Below, in pieces: positions 5,274 to 62,602 of a stretch of 64,000 nucleotides of DNA. A model generated the notes under the pieces. The model did no database searches. It was given only the letters and a program-made list of their open reading frames with translations, and was not told the DNA's origin. Every line of letters begins with the position of its first letter. Position 1 is the first letter of the stretch. The position numbers and the translations under genes are program-made. Where the stretch lies: assembly GCA_027858995.1 (NCBI GenBank), contig JAQIBP010000110.1:1-64000 (forward strand), written 5' to 3'. The DNA comes from Deltaproteobacteria bacterium. Lineage in GTDB: Bacteria; Desulfobacterota; Desulfobacteria; Desulfobacterales; Desulfobacteraceae.

Positions 5274-5810
5274 TTAATATTTTGTTTTTTTAAGATCAAT
5301 AACCAGTAGAACTTCGCCTTTTGGAATTGATAGTCTTTGGGCAATGGAATCCACATCAAAATTTTGATTATACATATCAATTATCTGATTCTGCTGATCA
5401 TACACAGTAGAGGTTGAAGATGATTGTAACCTGGATCTATTTTGTTTCTCTTCCATCTTTTTTTGCAGCGCATCCGCCCTGGACAGAAGAAGATTGATAC
5501 TTATAATCCTGGAATCCAGAGCATTGTTTAACTCTTTTATTAATCTCTTTTTTTCTTTTATCTGTTCATCAAAGGTTAAAGCGACCTTTTTGGATTCTTT
5601 AACGAGAGGTTCAATGATTTCAATGATATCCACTGCAGATCCGGATACATGTCCGAAATCTCCCTGATTGTCGCCACTATGTCCATGAATCAGATCACCA
5701 GAATTCAAATGATTTACTTTTTTAACCAATAAAAATAAAAAAATTATAAAAATAAAATTGATAAGAAAAAGGATTGCAATCCAGAATTCTATTGAGAATA
5801 ATTCTATCAT
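5274..5810 (-). CDS. Membrane-anchored coiled-coil protein, DUF2802-like, flagellar-cluster associated
   Basis: The 178-residue protein has one N-terminal transmembrane helix (about residues 8-30), a Gly/His/Asp-rich linker, a coiled coil (about 75-125) and a C-terminal helix-turn-helix-like segment (YDQQNQIIDMYNQNFDVDSI). This architecture resembles the DUF2802 proteins found in polar flagellar clusters. It is the last gene of the flagellar block, 41 bases after the FliL-like gene. Its function is unknown; a role in flagellar assembly or motor placement is inferred from context. Confidence 0.7.
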   Translation of the reverse strand: MIELFSIEFWIAILFLINFIFIIFLFLLVKKVNHLNSGDLIHGHSGDNQGDFGHVSGSAVDIIEIIEPLVKESKKVALTFDEQIKEKKRLIKELNNALDSRIISINLLLSRADALQKKMEEKQNRSRLQSSSTSTVYDQQNQIIDMYNQNFDVDSIAQRLSIPKGEVLLVIDLKKTKY

Positions 5811-5851
5811 ACTGTTTTGTATCCAGGTACGGTTGTCATTTTAAAGTCCCT

Positions 5852-7078
5852 CTAACTTGCTCTAAAAGATTGAAATCTAACCCGATCAATATAAGTCCCA
5901 GGCAATACCTTTTTCAAAGTCTTTTCAATATTCCATAAAATATATGCTTTTGTGATCTGATCTTGTTTTCCGGAAGCAAGGCTTTCATTAATGGAATTGT
6001 AAATTAGATCCCGATAAAATGATAAATTATTCTGAATTTCATGATATGCTCTTTGATCAGAATAATCAATGGAGACATCAGTAGTGATATAGACCATATC
6101 CTTTGACAAGTCAGATACAAGAATTACAAAATTCCTGATAACCATATTTCCTGCTCTATTGATATCTCCCGCTATTCCAGCATTCCTCCCCACTGTCTCT
6201 ATTTCAATTTCCCTTAATCCTTCAACTGCATATTGTTCCATGGTATCCTTTGTCTGGCTTGAATCACCTGAAAAAAAAAGCAAATAAACTGCAGGGACGA
6301 TAATTCCTATGGCAATCAGTGCAGAGGCAAAGGCAGTTACAAATTTTGACTGATACCATTTGGTCTTGGAATCTGTATCTTCCGCCTCTTCATTATAATC
6401 ATCTTCAAGGACAACCTGATATTCATCTTCTTCCAGTATATCCTCTTCATAATCCTCTTCATAATCCTCTTCATCATCCTCTTCATCATCCTCTTCATCA
6501 TCTATACCATCATCAGAATCCACATCCATTAGATCACCAAGAACATCTTCATCTTCCTGATCTGCTGCCATTAAAATAGAATCAATATCATCCTGGGAGA
6601 TAAGAAGATCATCATCAAGCAGAAGCACATCAATGTCTTCCCGGGACACATCTTCATCACCCTCTTCCAGGTCAAGCCTCGGAACATCGGGATCATGCTT
6701 CAAAAGGTCTTTGGATGTCGTATTTCCGGATGTATCGTCTTTACTGTCACCATATTCAGGAACCTGTTCAGCTTCCGGCTCAAATTCTTCTTTAGATTCT
6801 GATGTATTTAAATTCATCAGGCTGTCAATATCTTCCTGGGAGATCATTTCCAGATCATCGTCATCATCATATGTATCTATATTGTCTTCTGAGTCAAGTG
6901 GATTGGAATTCATAAGAGTGTCAATATCATCCTGAGAGAGTTCCCCGAACTCCTCACCATTATCATATTCCTCAGATGAAACTTTTTCTTCTGCTTCCTC
7001 AATTGAAAAGGAATCTAAAAACTTATCTATATCAACCTGAGAGATTAAACTATCTTCTTTAGTATCTGGATCAGACAT
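5852..7078 (-). CDS. FliL-like membrane protein with an acidic tail carrying five FliM-N-type motifs
   Basis: The 408-residue protein has three parts. Residues 1-240 are very acidic and contain five short motifs: SQVDIDKFLD (13), SQDDIDTLMN (48), SQEDIDSLMN (80), SREDIDVLLL (145) and SQDDIDSILM (161). These match the start of FliM in this window (SQDEVDSLLDGL), which in other bacteria binds phosphorylated CheY. Residues 190-235 are nearly all Asp/Glu. One transmembrane helix follows (about 246-268). The C-terminal 120 residues have a FliL-like pattern (NFVILVSDLSKDMVYITTDV, then an RDLIYNSI helix and a final strand). The repeats would lie in the cytoplasm and the FliL-like domain in the periplasm. 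It follows flhG by 15 bases. I know no named family with this architecture. Confidence 0.75.
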   Translation of the reverse strand: MSDPDTKEDSLISQVDIDKFLDSFSIEEAEEKVSSEEYDNGEEFGELSQDDIDTLMNSNPLDSEDNIDTYDDDDDLEMISQEDIDSLMNLNTSESKEEFEPEAEQVPEYGDSKDDTSGNTTSKDLLKHDPDVPRLDLEEGDEDVSREDIDVLLLDDDLLISQDDIDSILMAADQEDEDVLGDLMDVDSDDGIDDEEDDEEDDEEDYEEDYEEDILEEDEYQVVLEDDYNEEAEDTDSKTKWYQSKFVTAFASALIAIGIIVPAVYLLFFSGDSSQTKDTMEQYAVEGLREIEIETVGRNAGIAGDINRAGNMVIRNFVILVSDLSKDMVYITTDVSIDYSDQRAYHEIQNNLSFYRDLIYNSINESLASGKQDQITKAYILWNIEKTLKKVLPGTYIDRVRFQSFRAS

Positions 7079-7093
7079 TTGATGATTTCCCTT

Positions 7094-7987
7094 CTAATTT
7101 ACTGCCTGAAACACCTTATTCATAAAAAATGTTAAACTCCCATTTGAATTAGTCCTTGCAGGAGTGTTTCCAAGATTTAAAGCAATATCTTCAATGGCTT
7201 TTGCAGCCATTGAATCCGGAAAATTATCCATGACAAGTCCCCGCTTTTGAACTGCTGTCTGCAATTGCCTGTCAAAAGGGATATGGCCTGTATATTCCAA
7301 TACAACATTGTTCAAATATTTATCAAGTGCTGCACTTAAACTTGCATACACTCTCTTTGCCTGGGCAGCAGAATCAACCATATTGACAATTAATTTAAAA
7401 TATTTTGTTCCGTATTCACCTGATAAAATTTTCATCATTGCATAGGCATCGGTTATTGATGTAGGCTCTCTTGTGGCAATTACAATACATTCATCACAGG
7501 CTGAATTAAAGTATAATACATTTGATGAGATTCCAGCACCAGTGTCAACAAAAATAATATCTGCTTGATCGCAAAGAGATTCAAACTCACTTAAAAGATT
7601 TAGTTTTTCACCTTCGTTAAGTTGAGTCAACTCATCAAAACCACTGCCTCCCGGGAGAATCTTAATACCATGGTCTGAAGTTACCATAACCTGATTAAGG
7701 GTTTTTTGAGAGTTTATTATATGACGAATATTATATTCAGGTCGCAGATTGAAAATAATATCAATATTGGCAAGACCTACATCAGCATCAATGATAACCA
7801 CTCTTTTACCCATACGGCTTAAGGCAACAGCCATATTACCCACCACATTGGTTTTACCGACCCCGCCTTTACCGCTGGTAACGGCAATAACACGTGGCAG
7901 GCTGTTTTTTTTTGATGCCATATTTGCCTTTCTCCTTGAAAGCGCTTGTTTTTTAACGACTTTATGAAGCCCTTGTGCCTGATTCAA
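7094..7987 (-). CDS. flhG: FlhG (YlxH/FleN), MinD-type ATPase controlling flagellar number
   Basis: The 297-residue protein carries the deviant Walker A SGKGGVGKTN near residue 38, VIIDADVGLANID and FVDTGAGIS. Its N-terminus reads NQAQGLHKVVKK, which fits the DQAxxLR-type segment FlhG uses to activate the FlhF GTPase. FlhG limits flagellar number and links C-ring parts to FlhF. It follows flhF by 11 bases. The C-terminus is amphipathic, as expected for membrane targeting. Confidence 0.95.
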   Translation of the reverse strand: MNQAQGLHKVVKKQALSRRKANMASKKNSLPRVIAVTSGKGGVGKTNVVGNMAVALSRMGKRVVIIDADVGLANIDIIFNLRPEYNIRHIINSQKTLNQVMVTSDHGIKILPGGSGFDELTQLNEGEKLNLLSEFESLCDQADIIFVDTGAGISSNVLYFNSACDECIVIATREPTSITDAYAMMKILSGEYGTKYFKLIVNMVDSAAQAKRVYASLSAALDKYLNNVVLEYTGHIPFDRQLQTAVQKRGLVMDNFPDSMAAKAIEDIALNLGNTPARTNSNGSLTFFMNKVFQAVN

Positions 7988-7998
7988 CGTATGTTCTC

Positions 7999-9120
7999 TT
8001 ATCCTCTTCTCAAAATTATCTTGAGCAATCTGCCTCTGTCCGGGATAATCAAATCCTCAGGAACTCTTTGCCCATTTGTAATTAAAGAGACAGGCAGCTT
8101 AGTATCACATACCTGATCCATTATTTTACCGCACCTTTTTGCTTCATCAATCTTTGTAAATACAATAGTGTCAGGATTAAAGACTGAAAATGCAGATACT
8201 GCTTCCCGCATAATATTAGATTCAGAGGTAACACTCAATACCAAATGAATAGAAATTGCAAAACCGTTTTTAATTAATTGCAGTATTTCATCAATTTTTG
8301 GTTTATCAAAATGACTGTGCCCGGCAGTATCGATCAATACCATATCCATTGATCTCATTGAGTCCAAAGCGCAGGAGAGGTCCTGGGAATTGAATGCAGG
8401 CACACAAAACAACCCCATGATTGAAGCATAGGCTTTGAGCTGTTCAAATGCACCCACTCGATAATTATCAATGGAAATCAAGCCAACTTTCATTTTTTTT
8501 TGAAAATGCAGCAGAGCTGAAAGTTTTGCAATGGTTGTTGTTTTTCCAACCCCTGTAGGACCAACAAAAGCAGCCACATGGGGAACCTTGGAGCTGTTAT
8601 CTCCATTGAAAAAGTCAATTGTATTAATTTGATTTAAACATTGATGCATCACATGTTGTTTTAAAGATTTAATTTTTGAATCCTGGTCACAGTTTTTATC
8701 CATGAATGAACTTGCTTTTTGTATGATATAACTTGCCTGTGTTTCACTTACACCTGCCCGTAAAAGTGAAGCAAGAATGCCAACCGACTCAAAATGATTA
8801 CAAACCATATTATGCATGCCATTTCCAAAACCTGCAATGGAAATCATATCTTTAATATCAGCGATATCATCCTTGATAGAGGCTGTTATATCGTTTTGCT
8901 TAAAACCTGAACTTGATTTTTTTTTTACAGGCTGTACATCTGCATATTCCGGGACTGATGCTTCAACCTCAAACATAATTTTTTTCTTTTTTGAATATGG
9001 GTCAATGGATTTTGGAGAAATTTTCCTGGTACTTAAAATCATTGCATCAGACCCAAGTTCTTGTTTAATGTTTGATATGGCTTGTTGAATATTTCGAGCT
9101 CTATAAATTTTCTTGTTCAT
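7999..9120 (-). CDS. flhF: FlhF, SRP-type GTPase for flagellar placement
   Basis: The 373-residue protein has a variable N-terminal B domain, an N domain and an SRP-family GTPase G domain with GPTGVGKTTTIAKLSA (G1), ISIDNYR, DTAGHSHFD (G3) and FTKIDEA (G4). FlhF sets the cell-pole position of the flagellum together with FlhG. The usual upstream neighbours flhA and flhB are missing; fliN lies 183 bp upstream instead. That gap shows no clear promoter beyond an A/T-rich stretch. Confidence 0.95.
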   Translation of the reverse strand: MNKKIYRARNIQQAISNIKQELGSDAMILSTRKISPKSIDPYSKKKKIMFEVEASVPEYADVQPVKKKSSSGFKQNDITASIKDDIADIKDMISIAGFGNGMHNMVCNHFESVGILASLLRAGVSETQASYIIQKASSFMDKNCDQDSKIKSLKQHVMHQCLNQINTIDFFNGDNSSKVPHVAAFVGPTGVGKTTTIAKLSALLHFQKKMKVGLISIDNYRVGAFEQLKAYASIMGLFCVPAFNSQDLSCALDSMRSMDMVLIDTAGHSHFDKPKIDEILQLIKNGFAISIHLVLSVTSESNIMREAVSAFSVFNPDTIVFTKIDEAKRCGKIMDQVCDTKLPVSLITNGQRVPEDLIIPDRGRLLKIILRRG

Positions 9121-9303
9121 TTATCAAACTTACCTTTCCACTTTCCTGCAAATTAATATCATCCACTATTTGTGGGATACAACCATAAATGTTGATAAAA
9201 AAGGTTTAATCAATTTTCTTACATGACGGCACAAGCTTGGCGATGTCATGGGAACAGGCTGTGTATTAAATGCCACCTGTTGTTCCACAGCATTGGGGTT
9301 TGT

Positions 9304-9678
9304 TCATTCTTCAGCTGCCAGGGATTTAACCCTGTCAATTGGTGTGATAACATCTGTAAGCCTGACCCCAAATTTTTCATTGACCACAACCACTTCTCCC
9401 CTGGCAATCAGTTTATGATTGATATAAACTTCCAGGGATTCTCCGGCAAGTTTATTCAGCTCAATAATTGAGCCCTGCCCCAGTTGAAGGAGATCATTGA
9501 CTAACATTCGTGTCTTTCCAAGCTCAACAGAAAGCTCCAGAGGAATATCAAGGATAAAATCCAGATTCATCTCCCCCTGCTCCTGCTCTTCTATTTCTTC
9601 AACACTGTTTTGGGCTACTGAGTCCTGTATACTCTCCTCACTCTCTCCATTTTCTGTGTTTTCATTTTCTTCAGCCAT
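9304..9678 (-). CDS. fliN: FliN, flagellar motor switch protein
   Basis: The 124-residue protein has an acidic N-terminal extension and a SpoA domain (about 40-120) with LDIPLELSVELGKTRM, LLQLGQGSIIEL, EVYINHKLIARGEVVVVNEK and FGVRLTDVI. FliN forms the bottom of the C-ring with FliM and docks the FliH export component. It lies 100 bases after fliM in the same orientation. fliOPQR, which often follow fliN, are absent. Confidence 0.95.
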   Translation of the reverse strand: MAEENENTENGESEESIQDSVAQNSVEEIEEQEQGEMNLDFILDIPLELSVELGKTRMLVNDLLQLGQGSIIELNKLAGESLEVYINHKLIARGEVVVVNEKFGVRLTDVITPIDRVKSLAAEE

Positions 9679-9778
9679 TTTTTATTCTCTCAATTATTGT
9701 TTTTTCTCTCAATTTTATCTTTAATGAAAAAATTAAGTTTATTTTTAAACTTCAAAACACCAAAGCTGCACACGGTTG

Positions 9779-10771
9779 TTAATTCTTACAATCTGTAATT
9801 ATTTTATCTTTTATTTTAAACGCCTGAAACCCGCGTTGTACACCTGCATATCCTCTTAATTTTTCAAGCCCGTCAACATAGCATGTCAACGGTTCACCGG
9901 CAGAGTTATCCAGCTGGATAACATCTCCCTTCTGCATATAAATAAGTTTTTTTCCGGTTATCTCAACTCTTCCCAATTGAATTCTCATGTCGACTGTAGA
10001 ATTTAAAATCACATCCTTTATTACCCTGCGCCAGTTTGAATCAACTTCTTCGGCCTCAGCCTGAACACCTGAGGATAATTTTTTTCTCAGGGGTTCAATC
10101 ATGGAATAGGGGTAACAGACAACCAGATTCCCGGCAGACTGTTCAAGCTCAATTTCAAATCGAGTGACAATAACAATATCAGTTGGCAGAACAATAGCGG
10201 TAAACTGCGGATTCATTTCTGATCTGGTCAGTGTTATTGTAACATCTTCAATTGGAGCCCAGGAGGCCTGGATATTATCAAGGACTGCAACTACAGCCTT
10301 TTTAATCATGACCTCTTCTATGGCAGTAAATTCTCGCCCCTCCACCCTGGCTTTGCCAAGAGCTTCTCCACCAAAAAAAGTATCTATTAAATTATAGACA
10401 AGCTGGCTTTCAAATACAATCAGACCATGCCCGCGCAAAGGTTCCATACGAAATACATGGAGACTTGTGGGAACTGGCAGGCTTCTTACAAATTCAGAGA
10501 ATTTCAGTGTATCAAAAGGGCTGGCACTGACATCCACATTGGTTTGAAGCAAATTAGACAAGGTTACTCTGACTTCCCTGGAGAGCCTTTCATTGATGAC
10601 ATCAAAGGTGGGCATTCTTGCCCGTACAACCTTATCCTGGCTGGTAAAATCATATGCCGCAATACCTTCAACAGGTTCAGGTTTTTCAACATCTTTTTCA
10701 GTTTCAATTTCACCTGAATCCAATCCATCTAACAGACTGTCAACTTCATCTTGTGATAATATTTCACTCAT
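9779..10771 (-). CDS. fliM: FliM, flagellar motor switch protein
   Basis: The 330-residue protein starts with the CheY-binding motif SQDEVDSLLDGL (residues 5-16). A CheC-like middle domain follows, with LRGHGLIVFES and DTFFGGEALG, and then a C-terminal SpoA domain (RVEITGKKLIYMQKGDVI). FliM binds phosphorylated CheY and reverses rotation. It starts 4 bases after fliL ends, so fliL, fliM and probably fliN form one operon. Confidence 0.96.
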   Translation of the reverse strand: MSEILSQDEVDSLLDGLDSGEIETEKDVEKPEPVEGIAAYDFTSQDKVVRARMPTFDVINERLSREVRVTLSNLLQTNVDVSASPFDTLKFSEFVRSLPVPTSLHVFRMEPLRGHGLIVFESQLVYNLIDTFFGGEALGKARVEGREFTAIEEVMIKKAVVAVLDNIQASWAPIEDVTITLTRSEMNPQFTAIVLPTDIVIVTRFEIELEQSAGNLVVCYPYSMIEPLRKKLSSGVQAEAEEVDSNWRRVIKDVILNSTVDMRIQLGRVEITGKKLIYMQKGDVIQLDNSAGEPLTCYVDGLEKLRGYAGVQRGFQAFKIKDKIITDCKN

Positions 10772-10775
10772 GGTT

Positions 10776-11342
10776 TCATCGCTGCATTATAAAGTATGTA
10801 AAATAAATATTTCTAACCGTTAATTTTGGAAAAATTGCATTAATACGTTTAAGCAAATTATATTTAAGAGTAATCTTTCCTTCAGGGTTCCTTAATTCAA
10901 GCCACATCATTTCCTCTAACTGGCTTGTGATAATTTCTCTAATCCTGCCTTCCATGGTAAAAATCTGTTTTTTATATCTTGGATCTGTCAATTCGAGAGA
11001 CAGATTCATTGAGACTAAACCCATTGTTGAGCTTGATTTCAGGGGAATCCGTTCAAAGGGCTCAAGTTCAACAATATCATTAAAAATAATTTCCCTCTCC
11101 TGGGTCTCTGCCTTTTCAATCTTTTTTTCAACGACAGTTATGGCTTGTTCTTCTTCAGGGACTGCTTTAAAAAAGAAGAACCAGGCACCAGCTCCAAGAT
11201 CTATTAACAAAACAAAAGATACAGCTATAATAATGATGGATTTTTTTGATTTGAAAATATTTTTAAAGACTCCTCCTGTTTTCCCAAACAGACTTTGTTT
11301 CTCAGGTTTTTCCAAATCATTTTCTACACTATCTTCAGCCAC
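10776..11342 (-). CDS. fliL: FliL, flagellar stator-associated membrane protein
   Basis: The 188-residue protein has one transmembrane helix (about 35-55, IIIIAVSFVLLIDLGAGAWF) and a periplasmic FliL domain with SMNLSLELTDPRY and a final VRNIYFTYFIMQR strand. FliL rings surround the MotAB stator and stabilise torque generation. It is the first gene after the sigma-54 promoter at 11412-11428. Confidence 0.93.
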   Translation of the reverse strand: MAEDSVENDLEKPEKQSLFGKTGGVFKNIFKSKKSIIIIAVSFVLLIDLGAGAWFFFFKAVPEEEQAITVVEKKIEKAETQEREIIFNDIVELEPFERIPLKSSSTMGLVSMNLSLELTDPRYKKQIFTMEGRIREIITSQLEEMMWLELRNPEGKITLKYNLLKRINAIFPKLTVRNIYFTYFIMQR

Positions 11343-11411
11343 AACAGCTCCTGATATTAAACAGTGAAATATTTTATATATGGTTAAATATTATTATTCT
11401 ATATATGGAAA

Positions 11412-11428
11412 AGCAATCCTTGTGCCAA
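11412..11428 (-). promoter_or_regulatory. Sigma-54 promoter of the fliL-fliM-fliN operon
   Basis: The minus strand reads TTGGCACAAGGATTGCT, a full match to the -24/-12 consensus YTGGCAC-N5-TTGCW. The GC of the -12 box is about 70 bases upstream of the fliL ATG. A sigma-54 activator gene (18962-20026) lies in the same cluster. The rest of 11343-11675 holds no gene. Confidence 0.85.
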
Positions 11429-11675
11429 AGTATTATATTACCAGGGCTCAAAGGTATCACAACAAAAAAGAATGCTTTAAAGACAAGTATAAATATACTC
11501 TGCAATATTTGCAAAGTATTTTATTTTAAATAATGGATTAAAAACCATGGGAACAATTACAAGAAAATATTGTCAATCACTATGATAAAACGTCATAATA
11601 ATGACAGAGAAATGAAGTTTGAGTTATTAGATTTGCGGAATAGAGGGGTTAACTGCGCATTGGAATAAATCACTT

Positions 11676-12317
11676 TTATTTTTTTCTTTTAAGAACAAGG
11701 CCTTCACTTATTTTAGCTGCTTTGGAACTATCCACAAAGGATAAAATCTGGGAAGCCGGTGCTTGACGCATTCTTAAAAATATCTCCTGGGCTACCTCAA
11801 GATTCATTTCATCAACAATTAAAGCAGCTTTGCTAGGTCTCATGCCAGCATACATTTTTACAAGCCTGTTAACCTTTTCTTCCCATGCAGCTTCTTTTTT
11901 CTCTTCCCACTGGGTTTTTTTTTCTGCAAGAAGTGCCATATCTTCTTTGATCTTTTTTCCCATAGCTTTTAGATTCTCAAGCCTCTCATCAATCTGTTTT
12001 TCAAATATTTCAAGCTCTTTTTTTGCCTGAATTAGACTCTCCTGTTCTTTAGCAATTTTTGTTTTTTTATCTTCAAGTCCGCGCAATACAACTTTTGCAG
12101 GGTCTGGGCATTCCGGGCACTCTGGACAGGGATCTTCACTACCCTCTTTTGCATCAGATTTTTTACCTTTTTCAGATTCTTCTTTTTTATCATCTGCTGC
12201 AAAAACATATACTTTTTTAATAAAAATTGAGTAATCTTTAATTTGAAAAGAGTCAAATCCAGCAAAACAGAACAGAGCAATTCCTGTATAAATTAAAATT
12301 TTTTTATATTGTATCAT
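11676..12317 (-). CDS. motE: MotE-like flagellar protein (MgtE-N domain)
   Basis: The protein is 213 residues from the chosen start MIQYKKILIYTGIAL, which has AAGGA upstream and overlaps fliH by 14 bases. It has an N-terminal membrane helix, a charged segment, a Cys-Pro cluster CPECPECPDP, a long coiled coil (about 80-155) and a C-terminal MgtE-N-like domain (VNRLVKMYAGMRPSKAALIV). This matches MotE, the periplasmic chaperone that stabilises the stator-linked protein MotC. The three closely spaced Cys residues are unusual. fliI and fliJ, often found between fliH and motE, are missing. Confidence 0.8.
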   Translation of the reverse strand: MIQYKKILIYTGIALFCFAGFDSFQIKDYSIFIKKVYVFAADDKKEESEKGKKSDAKEGSEDPCPECPECPDPAKVVLRGLEDKKTKIAKEQESLIQAKKELEIFEKQIDERLENLKAMGKKIKEDMALLAEKKTQWEEKKEAAWEEKVNRLVKMYAGMRPSKAALIVDEMNLEVAQEIFLRMRQAPASQILSFVDSSKAAKISEGLVLKRKK

Positions 12318-13308
12318 TGGATCTTGTCCTTGCTGTTTTAACCGCTTCAAAGATAGCTTTTAATCTTGATTCAACATCTGATGAGATGGAAGCTGTTATA
12401 TTCTCTATCTTACAACTTCCTCTTTTAATGGAAGGATCTGATCTCACAGAGACACTTGTTAAAGAATCAACAGTTTCAAAAAACTCATCTTTGATCATCT
12501 CAATATATTCGTAATCATCCTGAGATACGCTCAAAACAACTTCTTCTGCCTGTACAAGAGTTTTGAAAGCATCAAGAATCATGGATTTGATAATTTCATC
12601 ATCAATTTCCATTTCTTCCATAATATTTTTTTTTACAACCTGCTCAATAAGTGAGATTACACTTGTTTTATATTTTTCCACCAGCAGATCCAAGGTTTGG
12701 TCTGCTGTTTTTAAAGATTGCTCAAGTAAATTTAAAATTTCGACAGCACCTTCTCTAACCTTTATTGTTCCTTTTGCCTGACCTTTTTTAACTCCCTGTT
12801 CAAGGTCCTGTTTTGTCCTCTGTTCTACTCCTTTTTGTTCTCGAGCTTCAAGACCTTGTTCCTTACCTTTTTTAAACCCATCCTTGAAGCCCTCTCTTTT
12901 CCCCTCTTCAATACCTTTTTCAAATCCCTGCCTATACCCTTTTTCTTCAGTCGCATCTTCTGATTTTGCAAGATCTTTATCTACAGCTGTTTCACTGTAT
13001 TCCAAATCCTCTGCCTTCTTTTGTGATTTATCTAATTTGCCTGACTGATCTGGGTCAGCGGATTCTTTCCCAGGATTTATTAAGGGTTGAAAAACAGTCT
13101 CTTCCTCTTCTTGATTATCATCATGAAGCGTTATAAATTCATCGGATTCTCCCTTTCCAAACTCTGGTTTTTCAAACAAGGCTTTAAACCGATAAAAATC
13201 AGGTTTGGTTTCTTCAGTTCTGTTTGAATATTCTTTATTAAAGCTTTCAATAGCACTTACAGCAATTGGTTCAAACTGATCACTATCCGTATCAGACAAG
13301 GACATCAT
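12304..13308 (-). CDS. fliH: FliH, flagellar export ATPase regulator
   Basis: The 334-residue protein has an acidic N-terminal half, a run of GxxxG repeats (GFEKGIEEGKREGFKDGFKK, about residues 130-185), which is the hallmark of FliH, and a C-terminal FliH/YscL domain. FliH dimers bind the FliI ATPase and tether it to FliN. The start at 13308 is preferred because GGAAAGGG precedes it closely; an in-frame ATG at 13323 overlaps fliG further. It overlaps fliG by 17 bases, so the two are translationally coupled. Confidence 0.88.
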   Translation of the reverse strand: MMSLSDTDSDQFEPIAVSAIESFNKEYSNRTEETKPDFYRFKALFEKPEFGKGESDEFITLHDDNQEEEETVFQPLINPGKESADPDQSGKLDKSQKKAEDLEYSETAVDKDLAKSEDATEEKGYRQGFEKGIEEGKREGFKDGFKKGKEQGLEAREQKGVEQRTKQDLEQGVKKGQAKGTIKVREGAVEILNLLEQSLKTADQTLDLLVEKYKTSVISLIEQVVKKNIMEEMEIDDEIIKSMILDAFKTLVQAEEVVLSVSQDDYEYIEMIKDEFFETVDSLTSVSVRSDPSIKRGSCKIENITASISSDVESRLKAIFEAVKTARTRSNDTI

Positions 13309-14311
13309 CTTTTCCCTTTCCAAGTGTTATAGCACCGTCAGCCTCCAGCTCTTTGGCTGTATGAACAACTGCCTGTTGGGCTTCTTCAACTTCTATAAGA
13401 CGTACCGGACCCATGACGTCAAGATCATCCTTAAGCATCTCTCCTGCTCTTTTGGAAAGATTGGAGTATATCTTCTCTTTCATTTCATCTGTTGCTGTTT
13501 TTAGTGCGCATGTCAGCTGCCGGCTTTCAACGTTCTTTAAGATCTCCCTCATTGCATTATCATCAATACCTGTAAGATCTTCAAATACAAACATCAGGTT
13601 ACGGATATCATTGGCCATTTCAGGATTATCTTCCTCAACAAATTCCATAACCATGTCTTCTGTTGTCTTGTCCACACCATTGATAATATCCACAAGCACC
13701 TGCAACCCTCCTGCTTTCCCACCAAGACCTACAGCACCTGAAAGTTCATGTTTTAATGCTTTATCAATATCCCGGACAACATCTTCTGAAATCTGACCTA
13801 ATCTTGCAATTCTCATTGAAATATCTCCTTTTTGATCGTCGGAAAGAGACATTAAGATTTCTGAAGATATTTCAGAGGGCATATGTGCCAGGATCATTGC
13901 AATGGTCTGGGGATGCTCTCCTTCCACATAACCCGCAAGAATGCCGATATTAATATTTCTGCTCCAGATAAATGGTTGTTCCTGTTTTTTCTTTTCAATA
14001 TCATCAAGAACTGCATCTGCATCTTGACTTTTTAAAGTCTTTTTAACGACATTTTTAATAAAAGAATCACTCTCTATAATCATTCTTGATTCACCCTCAA
14101 ATTTACCCACAAAATCTAAAGAGGCTTGTTTTAACATTTCAGGCGTAATACTATCAATTAAAGACATTTCAAAGGCAACATCGCTGATTTGGCGTTCATT
14201 CATATTTTCAAATGCGCGGGTGGCATAGTCCTCACCCATGGACATCAGGAAAATAGCAGCTTTCCTTGCTCCTGGTATTTTTTTTTCTTCTGCCTTTTCA
14301 GTTTCAGCCAT
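13292..14311 (-). CDS. fliG: FliG, flagellar motor switch protein
   Basis: The 339-residue protein has the standard three-domain layout. It begins GARKAAIFLMSMGEDYATRA, has the armadillo-type middle domain (HPQTIAMILAHMPSEISSEI) and a C-terminal torque domain with the charged helix (RAGEMLKDDLDVMGPVRLIE). FliG sits on FliF and meets MotA. It starts 2 bases after fliF ends. Confidence 0.96.
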   Translation of the reverse strand: MAETEKAEEKKIPGARKAAIFLMSMGEDYATRAFENMNERQISDVAFEMSLIDSITPEMLKQASLDFVGKFEGESRMIIESDSFIKNVVKKTLKSQDADAVLDDIEKKKQEQPFIWSRNINIGILAGYVEGEHPQTIAMILAHMPSEISSEILMSLSDDQKGDISMRIARLGQISEDVVRDIDKALKHELSGAVGLGGKAGGLQVLVDIINGVDKTTEDMVMEFVEEDNPEMANDIRNLMFVFEDLTGIDDNAMREILKNVESRQLTCALKTATDEMKEKIYSNLSKRAGEMLKDDLDVMGPVRLIEVEEAQQAVVHTAKELEADGAITLGKGKDDVLV

Positions 14312-14313
14312 GA

Positions 14314-16002
14314 TTACTCTTTTTCCTCCTCTGCTTCACTTATCCAGTCCTTAAGTATATTAACAGTTTTATAAAAATCTTTGTTGGCGTAATGTCTGGC
14401 TTTTTCATTGACAGATATATTGGCCAGATATGATGCGCGTTCAGATGCTTTCATATTCTGGACAAAATTTTCTTTTTGTTTCTCAGTCATGAGATCCAAG
14501 TACTCTTTTTGCTGGGCTGCATCCATATCAATAAATTCAGGCTCTTTCTCCTCATCTTCAAGCAAATCAAGTTCTTCAGGACTTTGCAATGATTCCTGAT
14601 CCACACTTGTCTTTATCTCTTTAACAGTTTTTATAATTGGACGTATTACAAGAAGGAACAGTAAAATTACAAGAAGCAGATTTGCAATGGTTCTGCCATA
14701 CTCTTTTTGAACCAATTCCAATCCTGTAACAGCAGGCTGCGGTTCTATTTGTGCAATGGATGCAAAGGGGAAACACTCCATGGACATCTGGTCACTGCGA
14801 TTTTCATTATATCCCATGGCTTTAATGACAATATTTTCAAACTGCTTCATCTCTTCAGCAGATCTTGGTACATATATCTTTTTTTGATTACCGCTTTCAT
14901 CGGTTCTATTTTCATATTTTCCATCCACCACAGCCGCCACTGACAGTCTTGTTAATAAAGCCATGGGCTTCTTGGTTTCCCTGATTCTTTTACTTATCTC
15001 ATAATTATATGTATCATCTGTTTTTTCAACCAGCTCACTGTTTTGTCCAACTGCCAGGTTTTCGTCTCTAACAATTGGATTTACACTGGAGGGGGTTGGA
15101 CTTTGTTCCGAAGCAGAAGTAATTTTTTCTCTTCTGTTTTTCCGGCTTCTGACAAAGTCTCCACCTATCTCAAAGGGATCGTAGATTTCTTCATTTATCC
15201 TGTTTTTTGAAAAATCCATTTCCGAAGTTACCCTGACAATAGCCTTATCCTTTCCAACAATTCTTTCAAGCATCGTCTGAATTTGTTTTGTAAGATTCTC
15301 TTCATATCTGACCTTATATTTATAATGGGCATCGGCAAAATTTTGAGCGTTTATCTCGGCCTGTTCTTCTTGAGATTTCCCTTCAAAAAGGATACTGCCT
15401 GCTGTATCAACAATGGTAACAAGTCTGGGTGTTAAATCCTGAATAGAGCTTGCCACAAGATGAGCAATAGCTGCAATTTTTTTTCTTTCAAGATCAGCAC
15501 TGAGCTCCAATAAAATAGAAGCCGATGGTTTTTTAACCTCTTCTGCAAATACAGAGTCTTGTGGCATAACGATCATGACATGGGCTGTTTTAACTTCATC
15601 AAAGGCAGAAATAGTCCTTGCAAGTTCTCCCTGGATTGCTCTTTTTTTATTAGTTTTTTGTACAAATTCAGTTGGTTCAAACCCAATCCCCCCACCTTTT
15701 GGAATTCCTTCTCTTGCCATGGAAAGCCTTACATCATAAACAATATCTTCAGGTACCATAATCGTGGCACCATCTTCTGTAATCCTGTAAGGAGTGTTGG
15801 ACTCTTGAAGCTGGTCAACAACCAGTGAAGCATCATCTTGCGAAAGCCCGGTATATGCAGCTTGAAACTTAGTTTTGTTCGCCCAGACAAACAGGGTTGT
15901 AAACCCTGCAACAACAATCATTGTAAAAATTCCAAGGGAAATTTTTCTGTACATGGACATATCTTTAAATGTCGTGATTATTCTTTTAATGACAGGATTC
16001 AT
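14314..16002 (-). CDS. fliF: FliF, flagellar MS-ring protein
   Basis: The 562-residue protein has an N-terminal transmembrane helix (about 20-42), the YscJ-like ring domains with YTGLSQDDASLVVDQLQESN and VAAVVDG, a second transmembrane helix (about 440-460, IANLLLVILLFLLVIRP) and a C-terminal cytoplasmic FliG-binding tail (MTEKQKENFVQNMK). It starts a fliF-fliG-fliH-motE operon. A sigma-54-like promoter is at 16086-16102. Confidence 0.95.
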   Translation of the reverse strand: MNPVIKRIITTFKDMSMYRKISLGIFTMIVVAGFTTLFVWANKTKFQAAYTGLSQDDASLVVDQLQESNTPYRITEDGATIMVPEDIVYDVRLSMAREGIPKGGGIGFEPTEFVQKTNKKRAIQGELARTISAFDEVKTAHVMIVMPQDSVFAEEVKKPSASILLELSADLERKKIAAIAHLVASSIQDLTPRLVTIVDTAGSILFEGKSQEEQAEINAQNFADAHYKYKVRYEENLTKQIQTMLERIVGKDKAIVRVTSEMDFSKNRINEEIYDPFEIGGDFVRSRKNRREKITSASEQSPTPSSVNPIVRDENLAVGQNSELVEKTDDTYNYEISKRIRETKKPMALLTRLSVAAVVDGKYENRTDESGNQKKIYVPRSAEEMKQFENIVIKAMGYNENRSDQMSMECFPFASIAQIEPQPAVTGLELVQKEYGRTIANLLLVILLFLLVIRPIIKTVKEIKTSVDQESLQSPEELDLLEDEEKEPEFIDMDAAQQKEYLDLMTEKQKENFVQNMKASERASYLANISVNEKARHYANKDFYKTVNILKDWISEAEEEKE

Positions 16003-25766: not shown

Positions 25767-26129
25767 ATGAAAACAAAAGATTTGGAATTTTTTAAAAATC
25801 TTTTAAATGACAGGCTTCAAGAACTGCTTTCCAATGCCGACGGCACAGTAACCGGAATGACCAAGCAAAAAGAAAATTTTCCTGATCCAACTGACAGGGC
25901 TTCCCATGAATCTAATAGAAGTTTTGAGCTGCGTATCAGGGATAGAGAACATAAATTGATCAAGAAAATCAAAAAAACTCTTTCACGTATTGACAATGAG
26001 TCATTTGGTATATGTGAAACATGTGAAGAAGAGATTTCCATTAAACGTCTTCAAGCAAGACCTGTAACAACTCAGTGCTTTGATTGCAAAAAACGTGAAG
26101 AGGAAATGGAAAAGGCTCTTGGCATCTAA
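25767..26129 (+). CDS. DksA/TraR-family zinc-finger regulator
   Basis: The 120-residue protein has a coiled-coil N-terminal part with an acidic-tip-like DPTDRAS segment and a C-terminal four-cysteine zinc finger (CETCEEEI ... CFDCKK). This is the DksA/TraR fold, which enters the RNA polymerase secondary channel and modulates transcription, often with ppGpp. A GGA-containing ribosome site precedes the ATG. It is 18 bases before the PHP-RNase III gene. Confidence 0.9.
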   Translation: MKTKDLEFFKNLLNDRLQELLSNADGTVTGMTKQKENFPDPTDRASHESNRSFELRIRDREHKLIKKIKKTLSRIDNESFGICETCEEEISIKRLQARPVTTQCFDCKKREEEMEKALGI

Positions 26130-26147: not shown

Positions 26148-27710
26148 TTGATTGATCTTCATATACATTCAACAGCTTCAGATGGATCACTCTCCCCTCT
26201 TGAAATTCTAAATCTGGCAGAAAAAATAAAACTCAGAGCTATTTCCATAACTGATCATGATACCATTGACGGTGTCAGAGAAGTTATAGAACATCCTATA
26301 TCCACCGGTCCTGAATTTATTACCGGGGTTGAAATTTCCTGCGAGCCCCCTGGTGAATTCAAGGATGTGGGAAGTGTCCACCTTCTTGGATATGGATTCA
26401 GTATTTATGATAAAAATCTTAATACCATTCTTGATAAGGCAAAAAAAGCCAGGGATCAAAGAAATCCTGCAATAATTAAAAGATTAAACAGTCTTGGATT
26501 CAGCCTGACCATGGAACAGGTTGAACAACGTTTTGGTGCTGATCAGACAGGCCGCCCCCATATAGCAGAACTTATGAAAGAAAAAGGATATGTTAAAACT
26601 TTTAAAGAAGCCTTTGATAAATACCTTGGCAAGGAATGCCCTGCCTATGTGGATAAATACAAAGTATCCTGCTCAAAGGCAATCAGGACAATCCTGGAAG
26701 CTGGAGGGATACCCATACTTGCACACCCTGGATTGTTGACCTTTCATAAAAGCCATGAGGTTGAAGATTTTATTGACACCTTTGTAACTTACGGGCTAGC
26801 GGGCATGGAGGTTTATTATACAGGGCATGATGATTCATTGACATCTTTTTTCCAAAAGCTTGCAAAACAGAAGAACCTGATGGTCACAGGCGGTTCTGAT
26901 TTCCATGGAGAATTTAATAAGGGTGTTGCAATGGGGAGTGGTCTTGGTAATCTCAAAATAGATTACTCTCTGTTTAAGGCATTAACTGTGCAGATAGAAA
27001 AAACTAAAGAAAAATATTCTAATTTAAACACCCTGGAGAATAATATCGGGTATTCATTTAAAGATAAATCATTGATAAATACAGCCCTTTGTCACAGATC
27101 CTTTTTAAATGAAAACCAGGATTCGTGTACAATGAATAATGAGCGCCTTGAGTTTCTTGGAGATGCAGTTTTAGGGCTTTGTATAGGACATCTTTTGATG
27201 GACAAAAATCCTTCTAAAAATGAAGGAGAACTTTCAAAATTGAGATCCAATCTTGTCAGTGAACCTGCCCTGGCAGATATGGCAAGATTTATTGATCTTG
27301 GCAGGTTTATCAAGCTTGGAAAAGGTGAAATGCTCTCCAGAGGGTTTGATAAAAATTCAATCCTGTCCGATGCCTTTGAAGCGGTTATTGCAGCTGTTTA
27401 CCTTGATGCAGGCTTTAAAAAAGTTTATCAGTTGACCCATGATCTTTTCAGTCAGATCTTTGAAAAAATCATGTCAACTGAAAAAATCATTGATTATAAA
27501 AGTATGCTGCAGGAACTGGTGCAGGACAAGGGACCTGAAACACCACAATATAAAGTTCTTAAGGAGATCGGCCCTGATCATGACAAAACTTTTGAAATCA
27601 GTTTAAGCCTTTTGGGTGTTGACTCCAAAGGTCTTGGTAAAAATAAAAAAACAGCAGAGCAGGATGCTGCAAAAAAAGTTTTAAAGATTCTTAATAAAAA
27701 AATGTCCTGA
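26148..27710 (+). CDS. rnc: PHP phosphoesterase (RNase AM/TrpH-type) fused to ribonuclease III
   Basis: One uninterrupted 520-codon frame carries two enzymes. Residues 1-285 form a PHP domain with MIDLHIHSTASDGS, SITDHDTIDG, GVEISCE, LAHPG and GSDFHG, so all expected metal ligands are present; it is closest to TrpH/YciV (RNase AM). Residues 295-520 form a complete RNase III: HRSFLNE, the signature NERLEFLGDAVL, the second catalytic site DAFEAVIAAVYLDAG, and a double-stranded-RNA-binding domain (ELVQDKGPETPQYKVL ... KKTAEQDAAKKVL). RNase III cuts double-stranded pre-rRNA, and RNase AM is known to trim rRNA 5' ends in E. coli. The start is a TTG that matches the PHP beginning; no better start is seen. 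No other rnc is present in the window. Confidence 0.9.
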   Translation: MIDLHIHSTASDGSLSPLEILNLAEKIKLRAISITDHDTIDGVREVIEHPISTGPEFITGVEISCEPPGEFKDVGSVHLLGYGFSIYDKNLNTILDKAKKARDQRNPAIIKRLNSLGFSLTMEQVEQRFGADQTGRPHIAELMKEKGYVKTFKEAFDKYLGKECPAYVDKYKVSCSKAIRTILEAGGIPILAHPGLLTFHKSHEVEDFIDTFVTYGLAGMEVYYTGHDDSLTSFFQKLAKQKNLMVTGGSDFHGEFNKGVAMGSGLGNLKIDYSLFKALTVQIEKTKEKYSNLNTLENNIGYSFKDKSLINTALCHRSFLNENQDSCTMNNERLEFLGDAVLGLCIGHLLMDKNPSKNEGELSKLRSNLVSEPALADMARFIDLGRFIKLGKGEMLSRGFDKNSILSDAFEAVIAAVYLDAGFKKVYQLTHDLFSQIFEKIMSTEKIIDYKSMLQELVQDKGPETPQYKVLKEIGPDHDKTFEISLSLLGVDSKGLGKNKKTAEQDAAKKVLKILNKKMS

Positions 27711-28750
27711 TGGTTGAATCCATGGTCAAACCTCTAGTGATACCTCTATTTATCCCCCATTCAGGATGCCCTCATCAATGTGCATTCTGTAATCAGTCCA
27801 TAATTACAAATCAAAAATCAAACCTTCCTGACAAAGATCAAATTGATGATATTATCACTCAATATCTGCAATATAAAGGAAAGCGGGAAAGAGTAGAGCT
27901 GGCCTTTTTTGGAGGAAATTTTCTGGGATTATCCCACAAAGATATCCTCAAACTGCTTAAAACAGTTAATCCCTATATCATTAACAACAAAATTGATGGT
28001 GTAAGATTTTCCACCCGCCCCGAAACTATTAATCCGCAGACACTTGACCTTATCAGACCCTTCAAGATCTCTGCCATTGAACTTGGTGTCCAGTCCATGA
28101 ATGACAGTGTTTTGTTAAAATCAAGAAGAGGGCATACTGCCGGGGATACAATCAAAGCAGTAGAGCTTCTTCAAAAATATTCTTTTAAAATCGGGGTTCA
28201 GGTTATGGCGGGTCTGCCCGGAGACCATGAGGATTCACTGTTAAAAAGCACAAGACAGGTCACAGAACTCAAACCTGATTTTGCAAGGATTTATCCTTTG
28301 ATGGTTTTAAAGGGCAGCCTTATGGAACAATGGTATAAAAAGGGTTTATACCAGCCTTTAAGACTTGAAGAGAGTGTAAAGTTTGTAAAACAGATGTATC
28401 AAATATTTAAGGCAGCTAACATTGATGTTATTCGTATGGGATTGCAGGCATCGGATATGATAGAAAATGAGTCAATGGTGCTTGCAGGCCCATGGCATCC
28501 AGCCTTTGGCCATCTTGTTTTTTCCCGGATTTTTTACGATATGATTTGCAGAAAAATAGATCAAAGCCCTGAACTGTTAAAAGCTGAAAACCTGATTTTA
28601 AATGTGCACCCCAAATCAGAGTCACGCCTTCGGGGTGATAAAAACAGTAATCTAAAAAAACTTAAATTACGTTATCCAGGGATCGATTTTCTGGTTGATT
28701 CAAATAACCCAATGCAAGAAAATGATTCTGTAGGTATAAAGCCTTTATAA
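27710..28750 (+). CDS. Radical SAM protein, Elp3/coproporphyrinogen-oxidase-like
   Basis: The 346-residue protein has the cluster motif CPHQCAFCNQ near residue 20 and the radical SAM features AFFGGNFLG and ELGVQSMNDSVL with MAGLPGD. It overlaps the RNase III stop by one base (TGATG), so it is translationally coupled to it. A similar radical SAM gene beside rnc occurs in other bacterial groups, but the reaction is unknown; a tRNA- or protein-modifying role is a guess. Confidence 0.88.
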   Translation: MVESMVKPLVIPLFIPHSGCPHQCAFCNQSIITNQKSNLPDKDQIDDIITQYLQYKGKRERVELAFFGGNFLGLSHKDILKLLKTVNPYIINNKIDGVRFSTRPETINPQTLDLIRPFKISAIELGVQSMNDSVLLKSRRGHTAGDTIKAVELLQKYSFKIGVQVMAGLPGDHEDSLLKSTRQVTELKPDFARIYPLMVLKGSLMEQWYKKGLYQPLRLEESVKFVKQMYQIFKAANIDVIRMGLQASDMIENESMVLAGPWHPAFGHLVFSRIFYDMICRKIDQSPELLKAENLILNVHPKSESRLRGDKNSNLKKLKLRYPGIDFLVDSNNPMQENDSVGIKPL

Positions 28751-30139: not shown

Positions 30140-30373
30140 ATGACAACATTATCAAAACGCTCAACCATATATTTAGATCCAACACTTCATCATGCATTAC
30201 GACTTAAAGCTCTTGAAACATCCTGCTCAATGTCTAAAATAATTAATGAAGTGTTGAGAGAAGCCCTTGCCGAAGATGCTAACGATCTCTCTGTATTTGA
30301 CGAAAGAAAAGACGAGTCTTTAGTGAGCTATGAGCAAATGCTCAAGAGGCTTAAACAAAATGGGCGTATATAA
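30140..30373 (+). CDS. Ribbon-helix-helix antitoxin (RelB/CopG-like)
   Basis: The 77-residue protein has an N-terminal ribbon-helix-helix DNA-binding domain (KRSTIYLDPTLHHALRLKAL) and an acidic C-terminal tail suited to wrapping a toxin. A strong AGGAGG lies ten bases before the ATG. It overlaps the RelE-like gene by 14 bases, the usual antitoxin-first layout. It should repress its own promoter. Confidence 0.85.
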   Translation: MTTLSKRSTIYLDPTLHHALRLKALETSCSMSKIINEVLREALAEDANDLSVFDERKDESLVSYEQMLKRLKQNGRI

Positions 30374-30617
30374 GATTTTTTTCAAAAAATCAGTTTGGAA
30401 AGATTTTAAATCTATTCCAGATAAAGATTTAACGAAAATTCTTGCTTGCATTGAATCTCTTGGCGAAAACCCACGTCAATCAGGATGTAATAAGTTGAGT
30501 GGACAAGAAAAACATCGTTTAAGATATGGACAATACCGTATTATCTATTCTATTCAAGATAAAGAACTTTCTATTTGGATAGTTAAGGTTGGAAACCGAA
30601 AGGATGTATATAGCTAA
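30360..30617 (+). CDS. RelE/ParE-family toxin
   Basis: The 85-residue protein starts MGVYKIFFKKSVWKDFKSIP and ends with LRYGQYRIIYSIQDKELSIW and KVGNRKDVY, the standard RelE-fold pattern with basic catalytic residues. RelE-type toxins cleave mRNA in the ribosome. The upstream in-frame ATG at 30330 would give an atypical extension, so 30360 is chosen. Confidence 0.88.
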   Translation: MGVYKIFFKKSVWKDFKSIPDKDLTKILACIESLGENPRQSGCNKLSGQEKHRLRYGQYRIIYSIQDKELSIWIVKVGNRKDVYS

Positions 30618-30915
30618 AGCGAACGAATAAGGATTGTGTGAGGAACGAACCACAATCTTATCCGGTGGTTGGACAAGCCCGGTAGAATTTGTATTAATGT
30701 CTATTTATAAGAAAACTTTAAAGGATATATTTAAAAACGATTACTTTAATATAGGGAGTCTGTTTTTAGTTAACTCGAGTATAATCCATCAATGCAGTAG
30801 ACCACAAGGGGCAGCTTTGCCACCCCTTGTTCCCTCGCTGCGCTCGGTGGACACTGATCTCAATCGTTCTGTGCTTCCTACAAAATTGTGACGTTAAAGA
30901 ATTAAAAAAATAGTA
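30618..30915. other. Intergenic stretch between the two toxin-antitoxin pairs
   Basis: It contains a stem ATAAGGATTGTG/CACAATCTTAT (30627-30661) after the RelE-like gene, possibly a weak terminator. A G/C-rich hairpin AAGGGG/CCCCTT (about 30808-30830) and the string ACGTTAAAG near 30892 could be the debris of another attC-like site. An 85-codon frame here has no coding character. Confidence 0.3.
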
Positions 30916-30943
30916 TTGCGCATTGCGCACAATGCTGTATAAT
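30916..30943 (+). promoter_or_regulatory. Promoter/operator of the higBA-like pair
   Basis: TTGCGC (30916-30921) and a perfect TATAAT (30938-30943) are 16 bp apart. The -10 box ends six bases before the toxin ATG at 30950. The repeated ATTGCGC ATTGCGC and the near-palindrome around it (30914-30933) are a likely antitoxin-binding site. Confidence 0.6.
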
Positions 30944-30949
30944 ATATCT

Positions 30950-31228
30950 ATGATAAAAACTTTCAAACACAAAGGACTGCGGAAATTCTTTGAAAATGGT
31001 AATTTGGCTGGCATTCAGCCTGGGCACCGGCAAAAACTTCGACTTCGACTTATAGCTCTCGACACTGCTACTTGTATTGAAGATATGAATACTCCAGGCT
31101 GGCGGCTCCACAGTTTGAAAGGTGATCACAAAGGATTATGGGCGATTGATGTCAATCGAAACTGGCGTATCATTTTTAAATTTAAAGATGGTAATGCCTA
31201 TATTGTAGACTATGAGGATTATCACTAA
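30950..31228 (+). CDS. higB: HigB-type toxin (RelE superfamily)
   Basis: The 92-residue protein reads MIKTFKHKGLRKFFENG at the start and GDHKGLWAIDVNRNWRIIFK in the core, typical of HigB mRNA interferases. The ATG at 30950 is preferred to an upstream TTG in the same frame because the family starts there. The toxin precedes the antitoxin, the usual HigBA order, and the frames overlap by one base. No leader separates promoter and start, so the mRNA is probably leaderless. Confidence 0.9.
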   Translation: MIKTFKHKGLRKFFENGNLAGIQPGHRQKLRLRLIALDTATCIEDMNTPGWRLHSLKGDHKGLWAIDVNRNWRIIFKFKDGNAYIVDYEDYH

Positions 31229-31518
31229 TGGTTATGTATAACCCACCCCATCCAGGGGAATTCATCAAAGATGTATATTTGGAGCCGTTGGGAGTGACCC
31301 CAAGAGGTGTTGCATTGCGGCTTAAAGTTGCACCTTCGACTTTTTCTAGGCTTATAAAAGGACAGAGTTCAATTAGCCCTGGCATGGCTCTGCGCCTATC
31401 CAAATGTTTGGGTCGCAGCCCAGAAAGCTGGCTTCTTATGCAGGATAGTTATGATTTATGGCAAGTTAAACAAAACGTTGATCTCTCAAACATAGAACCT
31501 CTGACAATACCAGCGTAA
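31228..31518 (+). CDS. higA: HigA-type antitoxin (XRE family)
   Basis: The 96-residue protein begins NPPHPGEFIKDVYLEPLGVT and carries a helix-turn-helix (GVALRLKVAPSTFSRLIKGQ) with the HigA ending (ALRLSKCLGRSPESWLLMQ). It should neutralise HigB and repress the promoter. An in-frame ATG two codons downstream is an alternative start. Confidence 0.92.
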   Translation: MVMYNPPHPGEFIKDVYLEPLGVTPRGVALRLKVAPSTFSRLIKGQSSISPGMALRLSKCLGRSPESWLLMQDSYDLWQVKQNVDLSNIEPLTIPA

Positions 31519-60910: not shown

Positions 60911-62602
60911 ATGCAAAAAAATCAATTAACAGATCTGCTTGTAAATCAAGAGCAGCATATATTATTAAAAAAACTGAGCACTTCAATGCCGGAAATTATT
61001 TTCAATGCCAGGCAGATATTTGATTTTGAACTGCTTACAACCGGTGTGTTCACGCCTTTAAAAGGATTCATGAAGCAGATTGATTATGAATCCGTGTTAG
61101 ATCGCATGCGTCTTGAATCCGGCGATCTCTGGCCGATCCCCATCTGTCTTGATATCCCGGAAAATCTGGGTTCAACCCTTGAAACAGGTCAATCTGTAAC
61201 CTTGCGAGATGCTGAAGGCTTTCTTCTTGGAATCATGAATATTGAGGATATCTGGCCCATTGAAATTGAAAAGGAAGCCCTTGCCGTTTACGGCACCACA
61301 GATAGAACCCATCCCGGAGTTGATTATCTTTATAATAAATCCGGTAAATATTATATAGGCGGTGAAATCCAGGCTCTGAACCTTCCTATTCATTCAGATT
61401 TTAAACAGATTCGAAATACACCTGCTGAAGTGAGAAAAACATTTTCCAAACTTGGCTGGAAACGCATAGTAGGATTCCAGACAAGGCAGCCCATTCACAG
61501 GCCGCAATTTGAAATGACCATACAGGCCATGCAGCAGGCCAAAGCAAATCTTCTTTTGCTGCCCATTGTAGGCATAACCAAACCGGGAGATTTTGACCAT
61601 TTTACACGAATGCGCTGCTACCAGAAAGTAGCAAAGCACTACCCTCCTGATTCACATGTCCTTAACCTTCTGCCCATGGCAATGCGAATGGCAGGACCAC
61701 GGGAAGCCCTGCTTCATATGATAATAGGCAAAAACTTTGGATGCACACATTTTGTTATTGGCCATAATCATTCTTCTCCGGGCAATGACAGCAATAACAA
61801 ACCTTTTTATAAATATGATGAAGCAACCAGTCTTGCAGCAGAGGCGACCAGAGAACTGGGTGTTGAGATCATCACATTTGAAGAATTAATCTATCTTCCC
61901 TTTGAAGATGAATATAAAATTGCAAGCAAGGTGGCAAAGGGTATAGATACGATTTCTTTTACAGGAACAGACATACAGAACAGAATCCGCAAAGGCAAAA
62001 AAGTTCCTGACTGGGCATCATTCCCCGAGGTTATAAAAGAACTCCGGAAATCCTGTCCCCTGCCTTTGAAACAGGGATTTACAATATTCTGTACAGGGTT
62101 GTCAGGAGCCGGCAAATCCACCATAGCAAAAATACTTTATTCAAAATTCCTTGAAATTGGAACACGACCGGTATCCCTGCTTGACGGTGATATTGTCAGA
62201 AGAAACCTCTCTTCCGAACTTAATTTTTCCAAAGAGCATCGTGATATCAATGTTAAACGCATCGGCTTTGTGGCAGCAGAGATTACAAAAAACAGAGGCA
62301 TTGCCATCTGTGCCCCGATAGCACCCTATGAAAAAACAAGAAAAAAGATAAGAGAGTCCATAGAAGCCCATGGCGGCTTTTTTGAAGTCCATGTTTCAAC
62401 TCCCATTACAGAGTGTGAAAAAAGAGATAGAAAAGGCATGTATGCCAAAGCAAGGGCAGGTCTTTTAAAAGGCTTTACCGGTGTCGACGACCCCTATGAA
62501 GATCCATCCAGCCCAGAACTTAAAATCGACACAACAAGCATGACCCCTGATGAAGCAGCCCAGGAAGTACTGCTGTACATCAGCCAGAATGGCTTTATTT
62601 AA
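60911..62602 (+). CDS. Bifunctional sulfate adenylyltransferase/adenylylsulfate kinase, with altered ATP-sulfurylase motifs
   Basis: The 563-residue protein has an N-terminal ATP sulfurylase domain (1-385) and a C-terminal APS kinase (390-563). The kinase is intact: GLSGAGKSTIAKILYS, LLDGDIVRRNL, FSKEHRDIN and ICAPIAPYEKTRKK. In the sulfurylase domain the usual QTRNP-HR-H motif is GFQTRQPIHRPQFEM, losing the Asn and the second His, and GRDHAGPG is GHNHSSPG; MRMAGPREAL remains. It may be a divergent active subfamily or a domain with altered function. The gene is alone. The Shine-Dalgarno is weak. Confidence 0.88.
   Translation: MQKNQLTDLLVNQEQHILLKKLSTSMPEIIFNARQIFDFELLTTGVFTPLKGFMKQIDYESVLDRMRLESGDLWPIPICLDIPENLGSTLETGQSVTLRDAEGFLLGIMNIEDIWPIEIEKEALAVYGTTDRTHPGVDYLYNKSGKYYIGGEIQALNLPIHSDFKQIRNTPAEVRKTFSKLGWKRIVGFQTRQPIHRPQFEMTIQAMQQAKANLLLLPIVGITKPGDFDHFTRMRCYQKVAKHYPPDSHVLNLLPMAMRMAGPREALLHMIIGKNFGCTHFVIGHNHSSPGNDSNNKPFYKYDEATSLAAEATRELGVEIITFEELIYLPFEDEYKIASKVAKGIDTISFTGTDIQNRIRKGKKVPDWASFPEVIKELRKSCPLPLKQGFTIFCTGLSGAGKSTIAKILYSKFLEIGTRPVSLLDGDIVRRNLSSELNFSKEHRDINVKRIGFVAAEITKNRGIAICAPIAPYEKTRKKIRESIEAHGGFFEVHVSTPITECEKRDRKGMYAKARAGLLKGFTGVDDPYEDPSSPELKIDTTSMTPDEAAQEVLLYISQNGFI

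Follow-up and report, generated by a model that had tools for sequence, protein, structure and literature searches.

The gene at the centre of this analysis, a fused php-rnc, occupies positions 26148-27710 (+) of the window, by which we mean the whole 64,000-nucleotide stretch of DNA that was analysed. It is a single open frame of 520 amino acids that runs from a TTG start, which lacks a strong Shine-Dalgarno sequence, to a TGA stop included in these coordinates. The N-terminal half is a PHP phosphoesterase domain (26151-26936, +; residues 2-263) with the metal ligands H5, H7, D12, H37, E62, H78, H193, D251 and H253. Within the same interval lie the 5'-phosphate pocket, R102, R105 and R136, and the stacking residue F156, with residue roles taken from PMC9410882. 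An inter-domain linker helix (26964-27017, +; residues 273-290), in which no internal start codon is conserved among relatives, leads to RNase III (27036-27686, +; residues 297-513) with the signatures NNERLEFLGDAVL (E335, D339) and SILSDAFEAV (D408, E411). The dsRNA-binding domain (27495-27692, +; residues 450-515) lies at the C-terminal end. Upstream, the gene is flanked by dksA (25767-26129, +), and downstream by a gene for an MnmL/Elp3-like radical SAM protein (27710-28750, +) that shares one base with the rnc stop. Small genes that by eye resemble RelE-type and HigBA toxin-antitoxin pairs appear in the open reading frame list at 30330-31518 (+), after the rnc operon and before a gene for a penicillin-binding protein. 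A flagellar cluster with FlhF, FlhG/MinD-like, FliM, FliG and FliF types, likewise recognised by eye, lies at 7094-16002 (-).

An earlier note on this DNA had described one frame holding a complete PHP domain with all metal ligands and a complete RNase III with its dsRNA-binding domain, and both the domain models and the individual residues agree with that description. The RNase III model TIGR02191 matches residues 297-513 with 238.2 bits, against a cut-off of 166.25. The Pfam models Ribonucleas_3_3 and dsrm (PF00035) cover residues 306-431 and 450-515, the latter with 51.8 bits against a cut-off of 23. For the PHP half, PF02811 (Pfam PHP) reaches 38.9 bits with a cut-off of 26.4. The top PHP model is the CV1693-type NF041577, which gives 165 bits over residues 2-263 and does not reach its cut-off of 400. 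NF047791 (RNase RNM) gives 146.7 bits over residues 1-254, also short of its cut-off of 375.

The php-rnc fusion is real, and is neither a frameshift nor an assembly artefact. It is present in 36 of 37 sampled Desulfobacteraceae genomes, isolates among them. These 36 comprise 34 of the 35 genus and family genomes plus two others (G141 and G174), and in all of them the junction at residues 280-300, where the earlier note had called for a check for sequencing error, contains no stop. The exception is a genome of 70% completeness (G031) in which no rnc locus was seen. The named isolates with a stop-free fusion include Desulfospira joergensenii DSM 10085 (L068), Desulfobacter vibrioformis DSM 8776 (L059) and Desulfobacter latus (L056), and the closest named relative, Desulfobacula (L064), is 78% identical. 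The window's own genome is spread over 172 contigs, which would suit an error of assembly or sequencing, or the remains of a degenerate PHP gene ahead of rnc. Such a reading is hardly credible, since it is refuted by the conservation of the fused frame in isolates. The same fusion also recurs in dozens of independent assemblies, single-contig genomes included, all PHP ligands are conserved and both halves are under purifying selection. Protein and profile searches of the window's own genome, which is 97% complete, detected no second RNase III, so the stand-alone rnc that might have spoken against the fused copy was not found there. Literature searches, incomplete in coverage, returned no description of a PHP-RNase III enzyme; as the earlier note had supposed, the architecture is apparently undescribed in the searchable literature.

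The residues of the PHP half were compared with the crystal structure of RNase AM, in which the metal ligands are His13, Asp20, His45, Glu72, His83, His198, Asp255 and His257, the 5'-phosphate pocket is formed by Arg107, Arg110 and Arg141, Phe161 stacks, and Arg201 contacts the phosphate (PMC9410882). We scored 15 positions, namely the eight metal ligands, Arg107, Arg110, Arg141, Phe161 and Arg201, all from that source, plus Asp11 and His15 of the D-x-H-x-H motif. Fourteen of the 15 are invariant across 80 fused and 89 split homologues: the residues of the three-metal site and the equivalents of Arg107, Arg110, Arg141 and Phe161 are conserved in all 169. The equivalent of Arg201 is absent from all 169, being Leu196 in the window's fusion and Leu, Ile or Ser in the fused homologues. 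In the RNase III half, every fused copy keeps the catalytic acidic residues E335, D339, D408 and E411 unchanged, as well as the signature motif. Between close pairs, dN/dS is about 0.12-0.34 for PHP and about 0.07-0.21 for RNase III. Judged from these comparisons of sequence, each active site is intact and purifying selection acts on both.

The AlphaFold model of the fusion has a mean pLDDT of 91.4 and a pTM of 0.82, with the helix of residues 273-290 connecting the two domains. Foldseek matches the PHP half to V. cholerae RNase AM (9ETK), BAD_1165 (3E0F) and CV1693 (2YB1), and the RNase III half to the enzymes of E. coli (7R97) and T. maritima. In the window, the RNase III part is preceded, at a distance of 30 nt, by a GTG with a weak Shine-Dalgarno-type site. 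Across the fused linkers, no start codon with a Shine-Dalgarno sequence is conserved, and an internal translation start yielding free RNase III was accordingly rejected.

With respect to known enzymes, the C-terminal half corresponds to bacterial RNase III (rnc, TIGR02191) over its full length, with its dsRNA-binding domain, a score above cut-off and all catalytic residues. What the fusion adds is a PHP phosphoesterase of some 270 residues at the N-terminus. The PHP half shares its fold and trinuclear metal site with RNase AM/RNase RNM (YciV, TrpH) of E. coli and V. cholerae, and keeps the Arg107/Arg110/Arg141 pocket and Phe161. However, RNase AM has an arginine at position 201 where the fusion has leucine, the fusion scores 147 bits where 375 are needed, and the two sit on separate branches of the PHP tree. 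RNase AM stands alone in E. coli, whereas here the PHP domain is joined to RNase III. CV1693, a 3',5'-nucleoside bisphosphate phosphatase (2YB1), likewise agrees with the fusion in fold and conserved residues, and is represented by the best-scoring PHP model; yet the fusion falls short of that model (165 against 400 bits) and lacks an arginine equivalent to Arg201, and CV1693 has no fused nuclease partner. In the PHP tree, RNase AM and CV1693 form a strongly supported group of their own on a long branch, apart from the fused clade, and the fused PHP domains group with stand-alone Desulfobacterota PHPs. Very long branches make the places of BAD_1165, the window genome's paralogue and L101 in this tree unsure. 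The label "RNase AM-like", used in the earlier note, thus holds for fold, metal site and 5'-phosphate pocket, and does not hold for Arg201, the NF047791 cut-off or tree position, and by these three tests it falls outside RNase AM proper. The PHP half is best described as belonging to a Desulfobacterota subfamily of PHP proteins with kinship to RNase AM and CV1693, and its mechanism is probably like that of one or the other.

The wider distribution was surveyed in 144 genomes of the order, with about a hundred loci read base by base. In nearly all surveyed loci php lies directly upstream of rnc, within the operon order dksA-php-rnc-radical SAM, and the dksA and radical SAM flanks are conserved in both the fused and the split state. 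Most loci consist of two genes, with the rnc start about -95 to +356 nt from the php stop and often within 20 nt. In many split genomes the two share a frame, with a single stop and a few codons between them. Within Desulfobacteraceae every scored PHP-carrying locus is fused, and the family forms one fused clade (SH-aLRT 99). Sporadic fusions occur in seven other families (L116; L121; L127; L132/L135; L137/L154/L156; L139; L146). When 116 concatenated sequences are placed on a tree, the fused or split state changes at least eight times, and strong branch support makes at least four of these changes unavoidable; owing to weak resolution of the backbone, the exact number is uncertain. Outside the order php and rnc sit apart, so we read separate neighbours as ancestral and the fusions as derived. 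On this evidence php and rnc fused once at the base of Desulfobacteraceae and on several further occasions in other families. The pairing of rnc with the radical SAM gene is older and extends to Syntrophales-type and Clostridia loci. One Desulfobacteraceae genome, MAG S145_18 (L073), groups inside the fused clade on the basis of RNase III and has no operonic PHP: at positions 5600-6690 of that locus, rnc comes immediately after dksA and begins at a GTG of its own. By its placement this lineage has lost the PHP part, and since it keeps rnc, the link to PHP is not indispensable. Among split Desulfobacterales rnc genes, the Asp of SILSDAFEAV (the D408 equivalent), invariant in fused copies, is Asn in 19 of 88 and Gly in 5 of 88.

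Cleavage by RNase III leaves 5'-phosphate ends. RNase AM degrades 5'-P RNA, both short oligomers and beyond (PMC9410882), and matures the 5' ends of all three E. coli rRNAs, according to the passages of PMC10250234 and PMC12506659 that cite Jain 2020. In view of these two activities, a tethered 5'-P-binding PHP domain fits a scheme of cutting followed by trimming or clearing. We postulate that php-rnc is a genuine bifunctional ribonuclease, encoded by two neighbours of a conserved operon that merged at the base of Desulfobacteraceae and remained merged, and we place this reading at roughly even probability. The RNase III half would dimerise and cut dsRNA, such as pre-rRNA stems or structured mRNA, leaving 5'-phosphate ends. 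The Arg/Arg/Arg/Phe pocket of the tethered PHP would then grip the 5'-phosphorylated nucleotide, and the three-metal centre would hydrolyse the phosphoester on the 3' side of the bound nucleotide. In this way the PHP half may trim 5'-P ends, or clear short 5'-P fragments, near the site of their production. DksA is a regulator of rRNA transcription, and the radical SAM protein of the operon is related to tRNA-modifying enzymes; this operon content fits a stable-RNA theme. Functional coupling of the two halves is a plausible hypothesis, as is the cutting and then trimming of rRNA, for which the operon content may be taken as indirect support; rRNA 5'-end trimming is one specific and less certain case. 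In its strongest form, the protein would be a single-chain rRNA maturase in which a dimer of RNase III cleaves the stems of pre-rRNA and passes the new 5'-P ends directly to two tethered PHP domains for trimming, the repeated fusions reflecting selection for coupling. We put this forward tentatively, as somewhat unlikely; if true, two steps performed by separate enzymes in E. coli are merged in one protein.

Specificity for rRNA is weakened by the presence of RNase J in the window's genome, which also rules out the PHP domain as the sole 5'-to-3' exonuclease, and by the prospect that PHP could act on pAp or nanoRNA instead. The latter leads to a rival reading, in which the PHP half is a housekeeping scavenger, a pAp phosphatase and/or nanoRNase with no link to RNase III substrates, and the fusion merely fixes the co-expression of neighbours. 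Its residues match CV1693, as does its best-scoring PHP model. Non-exhaustive profile searches of the 97% complete genome revealed no clear Orn, the sole RNase_T match being a DEDD exonuclease protein of 567 aa. Among DHH and inositol-phosphatase-family proteins, the same searches found none that attains the cut-offs for NrnA or CysQ. The window further encodes a fused ATP sulfurylase-APS kinase (sat-cysC, 60911-62602, +; NF004040, 807 bits); in a sulfate reducer this means that PAPS is made, and probably pAp too. A second stand-alone PHP of 314 aa is encoded in the same genome (G000:C171:34315-35223; also L002 and L003), with a pocket altered to Lys for Arg110 and Ile for Phe161. Such a protein occurs in most Desulfobacteraceae and is rare elsewhere in the order. 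Its retention in two genomes without an operonic PHP would suit scavenging, although the copy on C171 could relieve the fusion of that task. In ten fused genomes from other families no second PHP was found, leaving the fused copy as the sole PHP of its type detected; the idea that fusion requires a stand-alone PHP as back-up is thereby ruled out. Scavenging alone does not explain why php adjoins rnc across almost all of the order and has fused with it repeatedly, and we consider this reading rather improbable.

We judge it similarly doubtful that the merger was neutral, the intervening stop having been lost between in-frame neighbours whose halves work as before, the join being without consequence. 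It is favoured by the many split genomes with only a stop and a few codons between in-frame genes, by the sporadic recurrence in unrelated families and by the loss of the PHP part in one lineage. Against this, the fusion has been kept across at least ten genera of one family with a short and constant linker, and the linkers offer no conserved internal start for free RNase III, so that separation has not been restored within the sample. The bifunctional reading, for its part, has to accommodate the missing phosphate-binding Arg201 of RNase AM, a lineage (L073) that does without the PHP part, the sufficiency of separate proteins in most families of the order, and the fact that neighbouring genes, which often share a frame, may become fused with no functional need for it.

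RNase AM has only recently been recognised as the finisher of rRNA 5' ends in E. coli, and the enzyme responsible in other phyla is, to our knowledge, poorly known. That php almost always sits beside rnc in this order, and has fused with it repeatedly, points on comparative-genomic grounds to a pathway that RNase III and a 5'-P-dependent PHP nuclease may share. As a conserved and repeatedly evolved architecture that unites two known enzymes, the fusion is also a single purifiable protein in which a "cut then trim" RNA enzyme becomes directly testable, and it could possibly serve as a tool for cutting dsRNA and removing the resulting 5'-P ends. In another Desulfobacterota genome (G196:C1:676397-677080), RNase III lies in a frame of 670 aa and PHP in a frame of 486 aa, perhaps representing other fusions.
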